From an uncultured Mailhella sp. (GTDB taxonomy: Bacteria; Desulfobacterota; Desulfovibrionia; Desulfovibrionales; Desulfovibrionaceae): a stretch of 64,000 bases of DNA. Positions 40,612-55,059 of this stretch are shown piece after piece. The DNA lies in NCBI RefSeq assembly GCF_944324615.1, contig NZ_CALUWY010000008.1:1-64000 (forward strand). Reading direction: 5' to 3'. The notes beneath the pieces were generated by a model. It searched no databases and was not told the origin of the DNA. It was given only the letters and a program-made list of their open reading frames with translations. The position numbers were made by a program, and so were the translations under genes. Numbering within the stretch: position 1 is the first letter of the stretch; every line of letters begins with the position of its first letter.

Positions 40612-41457
40612 ATGAATATTGTTTCTTCCGTGGATGAGGTGCGCGCCCGGGTGAAGGCCTGGCGCAGACAAGGGCTGAGCGTGGGCCTTGTGCCGACCAT
40701 GGGATATCTGCACGAAGGGCACAGGAGCCTTATCGTGCGCGCCGTTCAGGAAAACGACCGCGTGGTGGTCAGCGATTTTGTGAATCCCACCCAGTTCGGC
40801 CCCGGCGAGGATCTGGCGAGCTATCCGCGTGATATCGAGGCCGACGCGCGCCTCTGCGAGGCGGCCGGAGCGCATCTTGTCTTCCACCCCGCTCCTGAAG
40901 ACATGTATGCGCCGGATTTCTGCACCTGGGTGGACATGCGTTCGCTCAGCGAAACCCTCTGCGGCAGAACGCGACCCATCCATTTCCGCGGGGTGTGCAC
41001 GGTAGTGAGCAAGCTTTTCCATATCGTGGCTCCGGACAGGGCGTATTTCGGACAGAAGGACGCCCAGCAGCTTGCCATCATCCGCCGCATGGTGCGCGAC
41101 CTCAACTTCGACATCGAAATCGTGGGCTGCCCCATCGTGCGCGAGGCGGACGGCCTGGCAAAGAGCTCCCGCAACACCTATCTGAACCCCGAAGAGCGCA
41201 GGGCCGCTCTGGTTTTGAGCCGCGCCGTGTTTCTCGGCCGCGACATGATGGAAAAAGGCGAAAGGGAAGCCTCGGTGGTGCTTTCGGCCATGAAGGCGTG
41301 CATAGAAAAGGAGCCTCTGGCCCGCATCGACTATGTGGACATGGTGGATGCCTCCTCCATGCAGCCCGTGGCGCGTGCGGAAGGCCCCGTGCTCTGCGCC
41401 ATGGCCGTGTACATCGGCAGCACGCGCCTCATCGACAACTTTTCCTTTGAAGGCTAG
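40612..41457 (+). CDS. panC: pantothenate synthetase
   Basis: 281 residues. [15 protein letters not shown] is the HIGH-like nucleotide site, [17 protein letters not shown] and GQKDAQQ the substrate and ATP segments. It joins pantoate and beta-alanine, feeding CoA synthesis. AAGGAG precedes the ATG. panD follows after 4 bases. Confidence 0.97.
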
Positions 41458-41461
41458 GCCC

Positions 41462-41869
41462 ATGCTTCTCAACATGCTGAAGGGCAGGATACACCGCGCC
41501 GTGGTCACGCAGGCGGAACTCGACCATGTGGGCAGCATCACCATCGATGAACGCCTCATGGAAGAATCCGGCATTCACGAGTACGAGCAGGTGCAGGTGG
41601 TGGACGTGGATAACGGGCTTAGCCTGGAAGCCTATGCCATTACGGGGACAAGAGACAGCGGCATTGTCTGCCTGAACGGAGCCGCCGCGCACATGGTGCA
41701 GCCCGGGGACAAGGTCATCATCATGGCCTATGCCCTGATGACCCCGGAAGAGGCGGATGTGTCCCTGCCGAAGGTCGTGTTTGTGGATGAGAAAAACAGG
41801 ATCTCCCGGGTTACCCGTTACGAGAGACACGGCAGACGGGAGGACAGGGATCCTCTTGAAGGCGTGTAG
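41462..41869 (+). CDS. panD: aspartate 1-decarboxylase proenzyme
   Basis: 135 residues. HVGSITID contains the Gly24-Ser25 autocleavage site that yields the pyruvoyl cofactor; the family-conserved [12 protein letters not shown] and [17 protein letters not shown] follow. It makes beta-alanine for PanC. The C-terminal tail ([12 protein letters not shown]) is polar and somewhat long. Whether a separate maturation factor PanM/PanZ exists is not visible here. Confidence 0.96.
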
Positions 41870-42463: not shown

Positions 42464-42739
42464 ATGCGAAAGGCTTTCAGACAGGCCGACCGTGAGGCAC
42501 TCATCACGCTCGGCCTCTATGCGTTTTTCTTTGTGTGGTGGACGGTGTTCGCCTTCGGACTCGGGTCCGGCGATGTGGAGGAATACGACTATGTGCTGGG
42601 GCTTCCGGCCTGGTTCTTCTACAGCTGCGTGCTGGGCTATCCCGTCATGACCCTGGTGCTCTGGGTCGTGGTACGCCGCTTTTTTGCCGATATTCCTCTG
42701 GATGAGGCGGAAGACGACGAAAAAGGGGAAAGGCAATGA
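42464..42739 (+). CDS. yhdT: YhdT-family small membrane protein
   Basis: 91 residues with two membrane helices (ALITLGLYAFFFVWWTVFAF and WFFYSCVLGYPVMTLVLWVV) and an acidic tail. It matches the DUF997/YhdT family, which almost always precedes panF. AAGGGGGA lies close to the ATG at 42464. Its last codons overlap panF by 4 bases (ATGA), so the pair likely forms one transporter unit. Confidence 0.88.
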   Translation: MRKAFRQADREALITLGLYAFFFVWWTVFAFGLGSGDVEEYDYVLGLPAWFFYSCVLGYPVMTLVLWVVVRRFFADIPLDEAEDDEKGERQ

Positions 42740-44217
42740 ACGTCGCGCTCATTCCTCTCATCGGCTACCTTGCCCTGACGCTTCTGCTGGCGCTGTGGGC
42801 GCAGAAGCAGGCGAAAAAGGGCGTCGGCCGGGGCTTTATTGAAGAATATTTCATCGGCGGGCGGACCATGGGCGGCTTTGTCCTCGCCATGACCATCATT
42901 GCAAGCTACACGAGTGCGAGCAGCTTTGTGGGCGGCCCGGGTGTGGCCTACAAACTGGGCCTCGGCTGGGTGCTGCTTGCCATGATTCAGGTCCCCACCA
43001 CGTTCCTCACTCTGGGCGTTCTCGGCAAGCGCTTCGCCATTCTGGGCAGGCGCATCCATGCCGTGACCATTACGGATTTTCTTTACGCAAGATACAGAAG
43101 CGACGCCGTGGTCCTGCTCTGTTCCGTGGCCATACTGTTGTTCTTCGCCGCTTCCATGGTGGCGCAGTTCATCGGCGGGGCGCGCGTGTTTCAGGCCGTG
43201 ACGGGGTATCCCTATGAGGCGGGACTCATTCTCTTCGGCGTGACCGTGGTGCTGTATACGGCGGTGGGCGGCTTCCGGGCCGTGGCCGTCACCGATGCCT
43301 TGCAGGGCGTGGTCATGCTCATTGCCTCCGTGGTCATCCTCTTTGCCGTGGTCCGGGCGGGCGGCGGCATGGAACAGTGCATACAGACGCTGAAGGGCAT
43401 GGACCCCGGCCTTGTTTCCCCTTCAGGCGCAGGGGACTCCATTCCCACGCCCATGCTCTTTTCCTTCTGGATACTGGTGGGCCTCGGCATTCTCGGTCTT
43501 CCCCAGACCACGCAGCGCTGCTTCGGCTACAAGAATTCCAAGTCCATGCACGATGCCATGATCATAGGCACGCTCATCATCGGCTTTCTGCTGCTGTTCA
43601 TGCACCTTGCGGGCGTGCTGGGCCGTGCCGTCATGCCCGGCCTCACCTCGGGCGATCTCATCATTCCTTCCCTTATTCTGGAGCTGCTGCCGCCCTTCTG
43701 GGCGGGTGTGTTCGTGGCCGGGCCTCTGGCCGCCATCATGTCCACCGTGGATACCATGCTGCTTCTGGTTTCCGCCTCCATCATCAAGGATCTGTATATC
43801 CGCTACCGCCTGAAGAACGACACTTCCGGCATATCGGCAAAGAAGATAGGCCGCATGAGCTTCTGCTGCACCCTTGCGGCCGGGGTGCTGGTGTTCTGCG
43901 CCTCCTTCAATCCCCCGGATCTTCTGGTGTGGATCAATCTTTTCGCCTTCGGCGGACTGGAGGCGGTGTTCCTCTGGCCCGTGGTGCTCGGCATGTACTG
44001 GAGAAGAGCCAATGCCACGGGGGCCGTCTGGTCCATGGCCGCAGGTGTGGCGGTATTCATGATTCTTTCCGTGTGCAAGGTGCCTCTGGGCGGGGTGCAC
44101 GCCATCGTGCCCACCTGCGTCGTATCGCTTCTTGCCTTCTGGCTGGGGAGCCTTCGCGGCGACCCCGTGCCGCCGGAGGTGACAAGGATGTTCTGGGGCG
44201 AGGAAGAGGAAGCCTGA
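42736..44217 (+). CDS. panF: sodium/pantothenate symporter
   Basis: 493 residues, about 13 membrane helices, SSS family. FIGGRTMGGFVLAMTIIASYTSASSFVGGPG carries the sodium-site region (split here for the PanF-like YTSASSFxGGPG motif), and LQGVVMLIAS and LGILGLPQTTQRCFGYK are PanF features. It imports pantothenate, complementing the panC-panD synthesis route. Translation is coupled to yhdT. Confidence 0.93.
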   Translation: MNVALIPLIGYLALTLLLALWAQKQAKKGVGRGFIEEYFIGGRTMGGFVLAMTIIASYTSASSFVGGPGVAYKLGLGWVLLAMIQVPTTFLTLGVLGKRFAILGRRIHAVTITDFLYARYRSDAVVLLCSVAILLFFAASMVAQFIGGARVFQAVTGYPYEAGLILFGVTVVLYTAVGGFRAVAVTDALQGVVMLIASVVILFAVVRAGGGMEQCIQTLKGMDPGLVSPSGAGDSIPTPMLFSFWILVGLGILGLPQTTQRCFGYKNSKSMHDAMIIGTLIIGFLLLFMHLAGVLGRAVMPGLTSGDLIIPSLILELLPPFWAGVFVAGPLAAIMSTVDTMLLLVSASIIKDLYIRYRLKNDTSGISAKKIGRMSFCCTLAAGVLVFCASFNPPDLLVWINLFAFGGLEAVFLWPVVLGMYWRRANATGAVWSMAAGVAVFMILSVCKVPLGGVHAIVPTCVVSLLAFWLGSLRGDPVPPEVTRMFWGEEEEA

Positions 44218-44281: not shown

Positions 44282-45610
44282 TCATGAGGAAAAGACCACG
44301 GGGCCGAACCACATGCCGATGATCCAGGCCAGAAGCACGCAGACGATCACCATGGGGAAGGAGAAGCGGAAGAAGTCCTTCGGCGAGGCATAGCCGTCCG
44401 AACCGAGAATGCTGGCCGCGATGGGCGGGGAGGAGAAGGGAAACATGATGGCGAGATTGGCCACCATGCCCACGGTGAAGCAGGCCACGATGGGGTTTAT
44501 GCCCTTCTGGGCGGCAATGAGGGCCGTGGTGGGAACCAGCAGGGAAATGACGGTGGCGGGGTTGGCCCACTGACAGAGCACGCCGCTGATGGCCAGCAGC
44601 ACCAGCCAGGTGAGCGAGGGGGAGAGATCTTCGAGCAGGGGCGAGACAAGCCCGGCCAGCCATGTGTCGATGCCGCCGTCGATGCATACCTGTCCGAAGG
44701 CAAGAACGCCGGAAACGAAGATGAGGATTTCCCAGTTGATGGAGGCAAGAGCCGTTTTCCAGTCCAGCACGAAGATGATTCTGCCGTTATCGTCGTGACC
44801 GGTGGGGATGAAGAGCAGGCAGACGCCGCACAGAACGGCAATGGTGGACACATCGAGGAGCTTTGCCAGGGCGGGCATGCCGAAACGTTCCGCCATGGGC
44901 TGGCCCAGACACCAGAGCAGCAGCGCGACGATGAGCACGGCAAGGGAGGCCTTTTCGCGGAGCGTCACCGGGCCGAGATTCTCCAGCCTCCGGCTGATGA
45001 CGTCCAGAGTGAAGCAGGAGTCGCTTTCCGAACAGCCGCGCAGGAAGAAGATCTGACAGAAGAGGAGCATGGCTGCCAGCCATGCGATGCAGAGCACCAT
45101 GCCGAAGGCGGACCATTCCCAGAACTGTACCTGATAGTTCAGGGAAGAGGCGATGATGCCTATGACGAGCAGGTTTGGTACGCCGCCCACCGGGGTGCCC
45201 GTGCCGCCCATGGAGGCACCTACGCCGCTCGCGACCACCATGGCCCGGATGAGCGGATGCCCGGGCTGGGCATGCATGCTTTTCCCCAGGGCGACGGCGA
45301 TGGACGTGAAGAGAATGGCGACGGGGATGTTCGGCATGATGGCGGAAAGGAGTCCGGCGGCCATGCCGAACAGGATCATCAGTCTTGAGGGGCTGTGGGC
45401 CACGAAGGAGGAGGTCACCACTTTGTAGGTGTAGCGTTCAATGAGATTGCTGTCCTTCATGGCGCTGAGCAGCAGCATGGAACCGAGCAGCAGCATGCAG
45501 GTCGGACTGCTGAGAAAGGCGAAGCCTCTGCTCAGAGGCAGAACGCCCATGAGACCGTAGAGCACGATGCCGAAAAGAGCGGTGAAGGGAAGCGGAAAGG
45601 CTTCGGTCAT
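44282..45610 (-). CDS. DASS/SLC13-family anion transporter, main part after an in-frame TGA
   Basis: 442 residues, about ten membrane helices. The start MTEAFPLPFTALFGIVLY is the family's internal motif (normally WWMTEA-I-P), not a true N terminus. MGGTGTPVGGVPNLLV and the second half ISGVLCQWANPATVISLLVP match the two SNT/ASNT-type sodium and substrate sites, though SN is degenerate in the first. Substrates in the family are dicarboxylates, sulfate or sulfonates. It is the third gene after the ferredoxin and flavoprotein. Without the first helix encoded upstream its function is doubtful unless re-initiation or read-through works. Confidence 0.8.
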   Translation of the reverse strand: MTEAFPLPFTALFGIVLYGLMGVLPLSRGFAFLSSPTCMLLLGSMLLLSAMKDSNLIERYTYKVVTSSFVAHSPSRLMILFGMAAGLLSAIMPNIPVAILFTSIAVALGKSMHAQPGHPLIRAMVVASGVGASMGGTGTPVGGVPNLLVIGIIASSLNYQVQFWEWSAFGMVLCIAWLAAMLLFCQIFFLRGCSESDSCFTLDVISRRLENLGPVTLREKASLAVLIVALLLWCLGQPMAERFGMPALAKLLDVSTIAVLCGVCLLFIPTGHDDNGRIIFVLDWKTALASINWEILIFVSGVLAFGQVCIDGGIDTWLAGLVSPLLEDLSPSLTWLVLLAISGVLCQWANPATVISLLVPTTALIAAQKGINPIVACFTVGMVANLAIMFPFSSPPIAASILGSDGYASPKDFFRFSFPMVIVCVLLAWIIGMWFGPVVFSS

Positions 45611-45766
45611 TCACCACAGGATGATCCATGCTATGGCCGCAAGGCTTTTCATACCCTGTTCTCCGAGCGAGGCAGGGGCGGGGCAGGCAAGAAGAACGAA
45701 ACACAGAAGCGGCCCGGACAGAATGCCGAAGAGATGAGGGCGGATGGAGGAGAGGAGTGCTTTCAT
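45611..45766 (-). pseudogene. N-terminal fragment of the same DASS transporter
   Basis: 51 codons from the ATG at 45766 (AGGA about 10 bases upstream). It encodes the family's first helix (RPHLFGILSGPLLCFVLLA, then ASLGEQGMKSLAAIAWIILW) and stops at TGA 45613-45611. The very next codon is the ATG that opens the main part in the same frame, giving W-stop-MTEA where the family has WWMTEA. A single TGG to TGA change explains this, so gene 44282-45766 would be one 494-residue transporter. Confidence 0.8.
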
Positions 45767-45840: not shown

Positions 45841-47532
45841 CTACTTTCGTACTTCGCGCCACGAGGTCACGACGGTACCGTCGTCACGCCTGGTCACGTC
45901 GAGCATTCTGTCGGCAAGAAGCGGGTTGGTGAAGGTGAAGTCGGAGCGTTTGTGACTGCCGCGCGTTTCCTTGCGTTCCAGGGCGGAACGCAGGATGCAT
46001 TCGGCGCAGTCGAACAGGTCGAGCACTTCGGCCGCCCGCATGAGCGTGTGGGAACAGGAGGCCTTCAGGCTGGCGTTCGTTTCCTTCCTCAGCTGGTTCA
46101 GATAGCTGAGTCCGGCATTGAGCAGCGATGCCGAGCGCACCTTGTAGGGCCCCACGTTGGCATAGTCGCTCATGATCTGGGTGAGGGCTATGTTCGCTTC
46201 CTGCCAGTCGGCGCCTTCTTTTCTTTCCATGAAGGAGGAGAGAAGTTCCATCTTGGCCCTGATGCCGGGGTTCAGAGCAAGGTCGCCGGTGGTGGTGCCG
46301 GCGGCGGAGATCGCCGAGGCTGCGGCGGCATGTCCGGCCCGCCAGCCCATCCATGCGGCAAGGCCGAGGCCGCAGCCTGCGTTGCCTACCATGTCGCCGG
46401 CGGCATAGAGCCCGGGAACCGTGGTCTGTCCGTCCTTGTCCACATCCAGGCCCCGGCCGTGCAGGATGGGTTCGTAACGGGTGAATTCAACGGCATGCTT
46501 CGCCGGATCGATGCCCTTGGAGTCCATGTAGCCGATGAGGGCGGAGAGACCTTCATCGAACATGGCCCTCCGCATGTAGGCCAGCGTTTCAGGGGTGTTT
46601 TCCGAGCAGTCGAGGTAGGCGGGGCCGCGCCCGTTCTGCATGACGTCGATGAAGGCGGAGTTCCAGATGTCGGAGGTCACGTCGCCGTATTCGGGGTCGG
46701 GCCGGGTGACGAAGGGGCCGAGCGGACTGCCGTCGGGGTAGCGGTAAACGCCTATCCATGTGGCCTTGCCCGCACGCTGCAGGTATTTGATGCCCGCATG
46801 GGTATAGGGAATTTCCATATTCACCATGCTTGCGCCGATGCGCCAGCCGAGGGCCTGTCCGCCGGCATTGTTGGGGCAGTGGGCGGTGTTGAAAAGATAG
46901 TTGGGGGTGGAGGCGTTGACGTACAGCCTGTGGGTGAGGCCCGTGGAGAGTATGACGCAGGGCGCCTTCACAAGCACGAAGGAAGGCTCGGGCGTGGAAG
47001 CGTTCAGGGCAAGGGCGCCGCATATCCGGCCGTCTTCCTTGGCAAGCTCCACGACGGGGTGATGGTTCAGCACGGTAACGCCGCGTTTTTTCATCTGTTC
47101 TGCCAGAACGGCCTTCTGCTTGCGGCCGTCGAACTTCAGAAAGACGCGGGGCTTGCCGGGGAGCGCGTGTCCCTGGAAATTCCAGCGTCCGAGGGGACGC
47201 ATGTTGATGCCCCATTCCTCCCACATCTTCACGATGTCGAAGCTTTCCTGGAGATGCAGGCGCATGAGCTCCACATCCTTTGCCTGTCCTATGAGGCTGC
47301 CCATGAGTTCCCTGAGAATGGGCTCCACGTCGTCGCCGTGCACTTCCGGGCAGTAGCAGCTGAAATGATCGTTGCCGGTAGCCCCGGAACCGGAACGCCT
47401 GACATGGCACTTTTCCAGAACGACCACTCTCTTCGCTCCGCCGTCCGCCGCAGCAATGGCCGCCATGGCGCCGCCTATGCCTCCGCCTACGATGACAACA
47501 TCAGCCTCAATGGTTCTGGAAACGGCGATCAT
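45841..47532 (-). CDS. AprA/fumarate-reductase-like FAD oxidoreductase
   Basis: 563 residues. VVIVGGGIGGAMAAIAAADGG (13-33) is the FAD dinucleotide fold, continued by VLEKCHVRRSGSGATGNDHF, and the second FAD segment VPGLYAAGDMVGNAGCGLGLAAW lies near 390-410. The C-terminal helical domain resembles that of AprA/SdhA. It is shorter than AprA (about 650) and lacks a signal peptide, so it is a cytoplasmic reductase or dehydrogenase of unknown substrate. It is encoded by a four-base overlap after its ferredoxin partner and under a sigma54 promoter. Confidence 0.85.
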   Translation of the reverse strand: MIAVSRTIEADVVIVGGGIGGAMAAIAAADGGAKRVVVLEKCHVRRSGSGATGNDHFSCYCPEVHGDDVEPILRELMGSLIGQAKDVELMRLHLQESFDIVKMWEEWGINMRPLGRWNFQGHALPGKPRVFLKFDGRKQKAVLAEQMKKRGVTVLNHHPVVELAKEDGRICGALALNASTPEPSFVLVKAPCVILSTGLTHRLYVNASTPNYLFNTAHCPNNAGGQALGWRIGASMVNMEIPYTHAGIKYLQRAGKATWIGVYRYPDGSPLGPFVTRPDPEYGDVTSDIWNSAFIDVMQNGRGPAYLDCSENTPETLAYMRRAMFDEGLSALIGYMDSKGIDPAKHAVEFTRYEPILHGRGLDVDKDGQTTVPGLYAAGDMVGNAGCGLGLAAWMGWRAGHAAAASAISAAGTTTGDLALNPGIRAKMELLSSFMERKEGADWQEANIALTQIMSDYANVGPYKVRSASLLNAGLSYLNQLRKETNASLKASCSHTLMRAAEVLDLFDCAECILRSALERKETRGSHKRSDFTFTNPLLADRMLDVTRRDDGTVVTSWREVRK

Positions 47533-47777
47533 CGGTTAACCTCCCGGCCGAGCGTGTCGGCATTGACGTGCAGAAGTGTGTAGGAAAGCGGCATACGGAG
47601 AGTGATGGCCCCCTTCGGGCAGTCGATGACACAGGAATCGCAGTGCCAGCATTCTTCCGGGAACCTGACCTGGGGAATGCTGTCCTTCGCACGGTCGAAG
47701 ACAAAGATGTTGGAATTGCAGATGTCGGCGCAGGTGCCGCAGCCTACGCACTTGTTTCGGTCTATGACGGGAGGCAT
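47529..47777 (-). CDS. AprB-like 2[4Fe-4S] ferredoxin
   Basis: 82 residues. Two motifs, CVGCGTCADICNSNIFVF and CWHCDSCVIDCPKGAITLR; the CW-x-C second motif and the following beta-tail resemble the end of AprB rather than plain ferredoxins. It would carry electrons to the adjacent flavoprotein. The ATG at 47777 has AAGGAG 8 bases upstream. The frame continues upstream to 47840 past the sigma54 start, so the shorter form is preferred. Confidence 0.88.
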   Translation of the reverse strand: MPPVIDRNKCVGCGTCADICNSNIFVFDRAKDSIPQVRFPEECWHCDSCVIDCPKGAITLRMPLSYTLLHVNADTLGREVNR

Positions 47778-47843
47778 GCTGTACTCCTTGAAAAATGTGA
47801 TCGGTGATTTCCGTTGCTCTGTCCCAGCGGATACCTCCACAGA

Positions 47844-47973: not shown

Positions 47974-49518
47974 ATGAAGAACAATTCTCTTTTAAAGCCG
48001 GAAACCGTGGCGCTGTCTCTTCGGGTCATGTACCGGATGGGCGGGCTGCGTAATGCTCTGGTGTATCTTCTCGACATCATCAAGCCCATGATGCCGGTAG
48101 CCAGGATAAACACGATTTTCGCCTACAGCGACGCCTCCACCGTGATAAGCGTGGCCGACACCAGCACCGTGAGCGTATCGAACAAATACAGCAGCGGCGG
48201 GCGTTCCAGGCCGCTGCTTCTGAGCGGCAGAGCGGGGGAAACGCTCATCATAGGAGATCTTTCTCCCTATCAGAACGATCCCGGCGTGCTCAGCGAACCT
48301 TCCTGGCGGGACATGCCCTATCTGCATTTCCGCTCGCTGCTGCGACTGCCCCTTTTTTCCAGCCGGGGCAATACGTTCCTCATCAATTTCTGGTCGGATG
48401 AGAAGGACGGTTTCAACAGCGGGGACGCCGCGTTTCTCCGGGAACTTCTCGATCCTTTTGTCGATGAACTGCGCGGCAATTTTCTGGACATCGCGCTTGA
48501 GGGAGCGCGACCTTCCCCGCAGACGCTTTCCGGCATGGAGAAGCTGGCGCTCTGCCCCGGCATGATGAAGGTACGGCAGCTTGTGGAAAGCGTGGCGAGG
48601 TGCGACAGCACGGTGCTCATTCTCGGAGAGACGGGCGTCGGCAAGGAATCCGTTGCCGAGGCCCTGCATCAGTGTTCGTCCCGTCGGGAACGCCCGGTCA
48701 TCAAGGTCAACTGCGGAGCCATTCCCGGCGATCTCATCGACAGCGAGCTGTTCGGGCATGAAAAAGGAGCGTTCACCGGAGCATCGGCATCCCGCCCGGG
48801 ATACTTTGAAATGGCGGACGGGGGCACCCTGTTTCTGGATGAAATAGGAGAAATGTCCCCGGAATCTCAGGTCAGGCTGCTGCGCGTACTGGATTCCGGC
48901 GTGGTGCGCCGTGTGGGGGGCGTGCGGGAATTCCGCGTGGACGTGCGCATCATTGCGGCCACCCATGAGGATCTGCCGGATAAGGTGATGGACGGGCGTT
49001 TCCGCCTCGACCTGTGGTACCGGCTTTCCGTGTTTCCCATACGCATACCGCCGCTCAGGGAGAGAATCGGCGACATTCCCGTGCTGGTCCGGCATTTTGT
49101 CCGGTCCAAGGCGCACAAGCTGGGGCTTGCAACGCTGCCGGACATTCCTGAGGAGGAGCTCTTGAAGCTTTTTCACCACAGCTGGCCCGGCAATGTGCGT
49201 GAACTGGAACATGTGGTGGAGCGGGCCATGATCACGCGGCATGTGGGGGCGGATGACGGCAGGCTGCACTTTGACGTGATGCCTGTGCCGGGGAGCGCGT
49301 CCGTTCCCTTTACGACGGGAGACGGCCTGCCGGCGCTTCACCTGCGGAGGCCGGAAGAGTGGCCGACGCTCAGGGAGGTGGAGGACCGCTATATCCGGGA
49401 GGTTCTGAAGCATTGCGGAGGCAAGCTGACGGGGGCCAATTCCGCCACCAGCATTCTGGATATCCATTACTCCACCTTGCGTTCCCGTCTGCGGGCGGAG
49501 GAGGAACAGCCCTCGTGA
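47974..49518 (+). CDS. sigma54-dependent transcriptional activator
   Basis: 514 residues. The N-terminal 170 residues are a GAF-like sensor domain. The AAA+ domain has Walker A GETGVGKE (218-225), the sigma54-contact loop GAFTGA (265-270), Walker [13 protein letters not shown], and the arginine-finger region [14 protein letters not shown] short Fis-type helix-turn-helix ends it ([14 protein letters not shown]). No receiver domain is present, so it senses a ligand or redox state directly. It almost certainly drives the divergent -24/-12 promoter. GAGG stands close to the ATG. Confidence 0.93.
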
Positions 49519-53658: not shown

Positions 53659-54744
53659 TCACTGCTCTTCGTTCTTTTCCTTCCCCTGCTGGTGGAAGGG
53701 CGCCGTGGAACGGTTTTCCCTGAGGTGATGGGAGAATTCCACGCGGGTGATGTTGTTCGGGGCGCTTCCCCCGGTCATGCGTTCGTAAAGAATATGAAAG
53801 GCGTTGCGCCCTTTTTCCTCGATGTGATGTTCCACGGAAGTGAGGCCCACGGTGCGGAAATGCGAGGCGAAGAGATTGTCGAAGCCGCACACGCTGTAAT
53901 CTTCCGGCACGCGCAGGCCCTTTTCGGCCAGAGCGTCCAGCACGCCGTAGGCCACGGAATCGTTCACCGCCACGATGCCGGAAATGCGGGAACTGCGCTT
54001 CAGGCACTCCATGGTCAGCTCATAGCCCACCCGATGTTCTATACCGATGTCGTTGAGTTCTTCAAGGGGTGTGATGTCGCGGGCAAAGACCTGTACGGAG
54101 GTGCCTTCCTCCTGGGCGTACACGGCGCGCACGCCGTCGAGCCTGCGCACACGCATGGCGTTTGCGCTGTTGAGCGTGGTGGAAATGAAGGCGATGTGCC
54201 TGTGGCCGAGGCCGAGCATGTGACGGCCCACCAGCATGCCCGCGCTGTAGTTGTCGAGCTCCACCGTGTCCACGTTCAGGCTGGTGTTCCTGTCGCCAAT
54301 GACCACGATGGGGATGGAGCGGTTGATTTTTTCAAGCAGGGAACTCTGGGGCATCATGGTGAACACGATGCCCGAGACACCCATGTCCACGGCCATGTCG
54401 AGCAGCTCGTTTTCCTTGCCGGCATCCCGGTAGGTGGTGAAGATGAGCGTGGAAACGCCGTGTTCCTCGGCGGACTGCTGAATGGCCTGCACCATGCTGG
54501 AATAATAGGCATTGCCGATGTTCGGGCTTACGATGAACACGAGCTTTCTGGAGGAAAGGGGCCTTGCCTTGTGCCTGACCGGAGCACGGTAGCCCAGAAC
54601 GTCCGCCGTGTGCCGCACGTTCCGCACCGTATCCGGGGAAAAGGAAACGTCGGGTCGCCCGTTCAAGATCATGGAGGCCGTGCTCAGCGAGACTCCCGCC
54701 GCCCGGCTCACATCTTCCAGTGTGATTCGCTTTTTCGTCGTCAT
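53659..54744 (-). CDS. LacI-family transcriptional regulator 1
   Basis: 361 residues. The helix-turn-helix plus hinge (ITLEDVSRAAGVSLSTAS, then DTVRNVRHTADVLGYRAP) is followed by a periplasmic-binding-protein-like sensor (FIVSPNIGNAYYSSMVQA, VVIGDRNTS). The ATG at 54744 has GGAG about 8 bases upstream. It is divergent from the MHS transporter across a region with palindromic operators, and is a close paralogue of the second LacI gene at 58.2 kb. Confidence 0.94.
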   Translation of the reverse strand: MTTKKRITLEDVSRAAGVSLSTASMILNGRPDVSFSPDTVRNVRHTADVLGYRAPVRHKARPLSSRKLVFIVSPNIGNAYYSSMVQAIQQSAEEHGVSTLIFTTYRDAGKENELLDMAVDMGVSGIVFTMMPQSSLLEKINRSIPIVVIGDRNTSLNVDTVELDNYSAGMLVGRHMLGLGHRHIAFISTTLNSANAMRVRRLDGVRAVYAQEEGTSVQVFARDITPLEELNDIGIEHRVGYELTMECLKRSSRISGIVAVNDSVAYGVLDALAEKGLRVPEDYSVCGFDNLFASHFRTVGLTSVEHHIEEKGRNAFHILYERMTGGSAPNNITRVEFSHHLRENRSTAPFHQQGKEKNEEQ

Positions 54745-55059
54745 GGCAACACTCCGAAAGCAGGCTAACGGCAAGGCCCGGTTTCGTCAAACCGGGAAAG
54801 AGAAGTTTATTAAAATTTTAAAAATGAAAAATCATGTTGCCGAAACTGGTGATTTCAAATACTAAATTTTTAAATATCGGAAAAATGAGCAAAATGCCTT
54901 GATTAATAGCAAAGATGCCCGTAGAAGAAGATACATGGAATACGGGAATGGCGAAGGATTTATTAAAATTTTAATAGAAATTTTTCCGAACTTTTAATTA
55001 AAATTTTAATGAATTCTTTCAGTGGTAGGGAGTTTTTTTAAACATCACAGGAGCTTTGT
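54745..55059. promoter_or_regulatory. AT-rich operator region between LacI-1 and the MHS transporter
   Basis: Of 315 bases, three carry the same palindrome: ATTAAAATTTTAA at 54809-54821, TATTAAAATTTTAATA at 54961-54976, and ATTAAAATTTTAAT at 54997-55010. The latter two centres are 35 bases apart; the first is about 153 bases away, next to the lacI-1 start. A related AAATTTTTAAAT lies near 54864. The layout fits autoregulated repression of both divergent genes, perhaps with a DNA loop. Confidence 0.65.

Follow-up and report, generated by a model that had tools for sequence, protein, structure and literature searches.

In-frame stops limited to a single lineage are already well described in bacteria, including nonsense pseudogenes and in-frame stop alleles (PMC7918605, PMC11078800). 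In-frame stops under continued purifying selection are reported to be widespread, and UGA is described as leaky in enteric bacteria, in which Trp is inserted at very low frequency; such low-level misreading is argued to be common (PMC7918605). The features described for UGA-reading tRNA-Trp are a 4-bp anticodon stem, G24A (Hirsh) and A9C (PMC13092985). For the DASS family (SLC13/INDY; PF00939 and PF03600; e.g., VcINDY and NaCT), the scaffold domain of LaINDY and VcINDY comprises transmembrane helices (TMs) 1–4 and 7–9 (PMC7553777). The DASS-family gene described here, from a 64,000-nucleotide stretch of an uncultured Mailhella genome (the window), is a further example of a lineage-limited in-frame stop. 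It is probably a recent, lineage-specific nonsense allele in an anion transporter gene, constituting either a young pseudogene or a strain-level null allele. The gene resembles described bacterial nonsense pseudogenes (PMC7918605, PMC11078800) in having one nonsense substitution, in one lineage, with the gene otherwise intact; it differs in the ATG that adjoins the stop, and is otherwise nothing special.

On the minus strand, positions 45616–45605 read TGG (45616–45614), TGA (45613–45611), ATG (45610–45608), and ACC, exactly the W-stop-M-T of the original prediction. If the TGA is read through, the frame runs from the ATG at 45766 to 44282 and comprises 494 codons plus a terminal TGA at 44284–44282; the internal TGA is codon 52, and codons 51–56 encode W-[TGA]-MTEA. 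In a Pfam search of the genome, the PF00939 match spans the stop, with one internal TGA reported, in agreement with the earlier view that both halves lie in one frame of a 494-residue transporter. A chance ORF is excluded by the homology on both sides of the TGA over 494 codons. The features of the locus are as follows:

44282–45766, minus strand: DASS-family transporter frame, interrupted at codon 52 (Pfam, comparison with the nearest congener, fold match)
45611–45613, minus strand: in-frame TGA, codon 52; TGG in the nearest congener, Trp in all aligned relatives
45614–45766, minus strand: upstream piece, codons 1–51, with TM1 and most of TM2 (structure model)
44282–45610, minus strand: downstream 442-codon ORF starting at the ATG that follows the stop, from TM3 on (ORF list, profile search)
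45841–47532, minus strand: FAD flavoprotein of the fumarate reductase/AprA superfamily, intact; upstream neighbor of the DASS gene
47529–47840, minus strand: 4Fe-4S ferredoxin-type protein; shares 4 bases with the start of the flavoprotein frame
47974–49518, plus strand: divergent sigma-54-dependent regulator (PF00158), adjoining the ferredoxin-flavoprotein-DASS set
42736–44217, plus strand: sodium/pantothenate symporter, intact (PanF equivalog, 643 bits)

The sigma-54-dependent regulator (47974–49518) is a candidate for control of the ferredoxin-flavoprotein-DASS set. On the other side of the DASS gene, an ORF close to PanF (41333–41869) seemingly contains PanD, and a possible PanC frame precedes it; together with PanF these frames, whose names come only from sequence, look like a pantothenate cluster. 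A second DASS gene, located outside the window (C2:38316–39701; L048:10316–11701), also lies behind a FAD flavoprotein gene. Compared with the intact gene of genome G018, it is broken into three frames by two homopolymer indels of one base each (a C run shortened by one, a G run lengthened by one), which could be either sequence errors or the mark of another lost DASS gene.

The genome that contains the window (G000) is 98.5% complete (3.12 Mb in 126 contigs), and its nearest congener, G008, is a Mailhella-group species of the Desulfovibrionaceae. Gene order is the same in G008, with the DASS gene behind the flavoprotein and ferredoxin genes. The G008 ortholog has 89% DNA identity, is gap-free over the coding part, and encodes TGG at codon 52 in an open 494-residue ORF; this bears out the claim that a single TGG-to-TGA change split an otherwise intact transporter. 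It had also been considered that relatives might carry the same TGA and encode two separate proteins, but no other match within the genus has an internal stop. More widely, a search with an alignment as query recovered 48 relatives (a single-protein query recovered none), and both Trp residues, W51 and W52, are conserved without exception in two alignments (11 and 13 proteins); Trp also occupies the aligned position in the SLC13A5, NaDC3, and SLC13A2 chains. The motif WWMTEA, originally ascribed to the family, thus holds for its two Trp residues, but among the relatives aligned the exact string is present only in G008, the others having WW[IMVL]TE, WWMSE, or WWMLD. Because G008 has TGG, and all aligned relatives have Trp, the stop is a derived change that only this genome shows. 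That it falls on a Trp codon is unremarkable, given that 91 single-base changes to a stop are possible in the G008 gene, including two in each of its 13 TGG codons.

Against PF00939 and PF03600, the G008 protein scores 131.5 and 153.6 bits, respectively, and the downstream half of the window gene 124.6 and 131.2 bits, above the curated cut-off; the window frame scores 139.3 bits against PF00939 across the stop. The DASS affiliation is further consistent with a predicted fold similar to those of SLC13 proteins and VcINDY. Unlike described DASS transporters, the window frame is broken by the TGA at codon 52, and the TIGR00785 (dass, NCBIfam) cut-off of 198.6 is not reached, even by the intact G008 protein (130.1 bits); judged by sequence, the window and G008 transporter is a divergent DASS branch. 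The read-through frame, modeled with AlphaFold2 (mean pLDDT 84), has its best PDB matches in NaDC3, NaCT, NaS1, and VcINDY, with TM-scores of about 0.7–0.8, indicating an INDY-type fold. Helices are predicted at residues 2–27 and 35–54, then at 59–72 and onward, which places Trp-52 near the end of TM2. Because TMs 1–4 belong to the scaffold (PMC7553777), a stop at codon 52 strips the first two scaffold helices from any downstream product; from this predicted loss of TM1–TM2, we infer that the function of the product is lost.

In the proposed sequence of events, one G-to-A change would have converted the codon of the invariant Trp-52 to UGA; translation would then yield a piece of only 51 residues, spanning TM1 and most of TM2, such that little or no working transporter would be made. 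The gene has the hallmarks of a nonsense pseudogene: an in-frame stop that is not in the orthologs, and a truncated conserved domain. Ka/Ks against G008 is 0.17 for codons 1–51 and 0.15 for codons 53–494, although such pairwise values mostly reflect the time before the mutation and cannot date the end of selection; the correctly framed neighbors range from 0.04 to 0.23, leaving out the ferredoxin, the aldolase, and 53659–54774 (ends out of frame). Purifying selection has therefore acted on both halves through most of the divergence, and the loss, if real, is recent. The removal of TM1–TM2, the absence of the stop from relatives, a normal tRNA-Trp, and clean surroundings together make a nonsense allele the best reading, and we infer that the cell does carry this base and that the product is dead. 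Against a nonsense allele, the rest of the gene has undergone no further decay, with Ka/Ks of ~0.15 in both halves, and a sequence error or a tolerated stop would look alike.

An error in the consensus of the 126-contig assembly, arising from base-calling or from a minor variant in a mixed population, would mean that the cell has TGG. The otherwise intact and apparently constrained gene fits such an error, as do the two indels of the DASS gene on contig C2, which are a typical sequencing-error pattern; however, the TGA is a substitution rather than a homopolymer indel, and the comparison of about 125 genes (147 kb) with G008 revealed no further internal break. These were orthologous genes on G000 contigs C1 and C8, with the G008 synteny used for comparison coming from the end of C28. 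A script flagged 21 of the 125 genes; in one of these the match falls at a contig end, and in the others open G000 ORFs cover almost the whole aligned part. Poor assembly as a general cause was rejected, the 21 flags lying in artificial extensions of long G008 ORFs or, once, at a contig end. Across the 31 kb of synteny surrounding the DASS gene, the alignment likewise shows no frameshift inside a true gene. The sampled sequence is thus of good base-level quality, which speaks for a real TGA, and we regard a consensus error as unlikely, albeit as an explanation to be taken seriously.

Explanations by which the UGA is decoded or bypassed in the cell are harder to sustain. Genome-wide reassignment of UGA to Trp shares with the described system (PMC13092985) a UGA where Trp is expected, but the only tRNA-Trp found has the anticodon CCA, a 5-bp anticodon stem (GCGGU/ACCGC), A9, and G24, and is identical in G000, G008, and G018. 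None of the surveyed tRNA genes has a UCA anticodon. There is no in-frame stop within 25 DctM and 57 ABC-domain matches in genome domain scans, and no other in-frame UGA in the approximately 125 genes compared with G008; the domain scans and tRNA survey rule out reassignment, and the standard code is kept. An ordinary tRNA-Trp could instead misread the UGA at a low rate, restoring the ancestral Trp in a reduced amount of full-length transporter, so that expression is lowered rather than abolished. The leakiness of UGA in enteric bacteria, the constrained in-frame stops reported elsewhere, and Ka/Ks of about 0.15 in both halves are all compatible with a leaky stop. This is nevertheless quite improbable: the tRNA-Trp, with its normal stem, A9, and G24, is without the changes that raise UGA reading (PMC13092985), the TGA is conserved in no relative, and the Ka/Ks values largely predate the mutation. 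It is highly improbable that the stop is a tolerated regulatory nonsense codon, at which UGA leaks as Trp to give a trace of transporter and perhaps also a 442-residue form made by re-initiation; no observation in this genome points to such leakage. Re-initiation had been thought conceivable because the downstream half opens with ATG; the ATG does adjoin the TGA, in a geometry that permits termination-reinitiation, and the downstream ORF retains most of the PF00939 profile, but restart is only weakly plausible given an unconserved Met-53 and the missing TM1–TM2. At residue 53, relatives have M, I, V, or L, such that there is no conserved start; the sole anti-SD pairing (GGUGA) touches the ATG, with no spacer; the 442-residue product would be without the scaffold TM1–TM2; and the arrangement is in no relative. 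An ATG directly behind the stop would be expected by chance in ~4% of cases, given 21 Met among 494 residues, and because Met-53 is not conserved and GGUGA has no spacer, its position is probably a coincidence. The downstream 442-codon ORF as a restart product is possible but unlikely, and that the locus encodes two functional pieces, the second a 442-residue transporter, is very hard to credit. Selenocysteine at codon 52 is scarcely conceivable: the genome encodes SelB (selB), and a short 5-bp hairpin is possible just downstream of the codon, but its CUUUCC loop is without GU, which a bacterial SECIS loop is expected to carry. Moreover, relatives have Trp at this position and never Cys (11 and 13 aligned proteins), and DASS transporters are not redox proteins. 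With no SECIS-like evidence from the hairpin behind the codon or from Rfam (no relevant match), a selenoprotein was rejected despite the presence of SelB.

At this locus, automatic annotation would give a truncated gene, two partial genes, or a pseudogene; the TGA in the DASS gene raises no new question on decoding. The genome has several other DASS genes as well as some 25 TRAP-type (DctM) matches, and the loss of the window DASS gene may be buffered by these DASS-type and TRAP-type genes. If real, the nonsense allele would mean that a gut Desulfovibrionaceae lineage is in the course of losing one of several DASS transporters.
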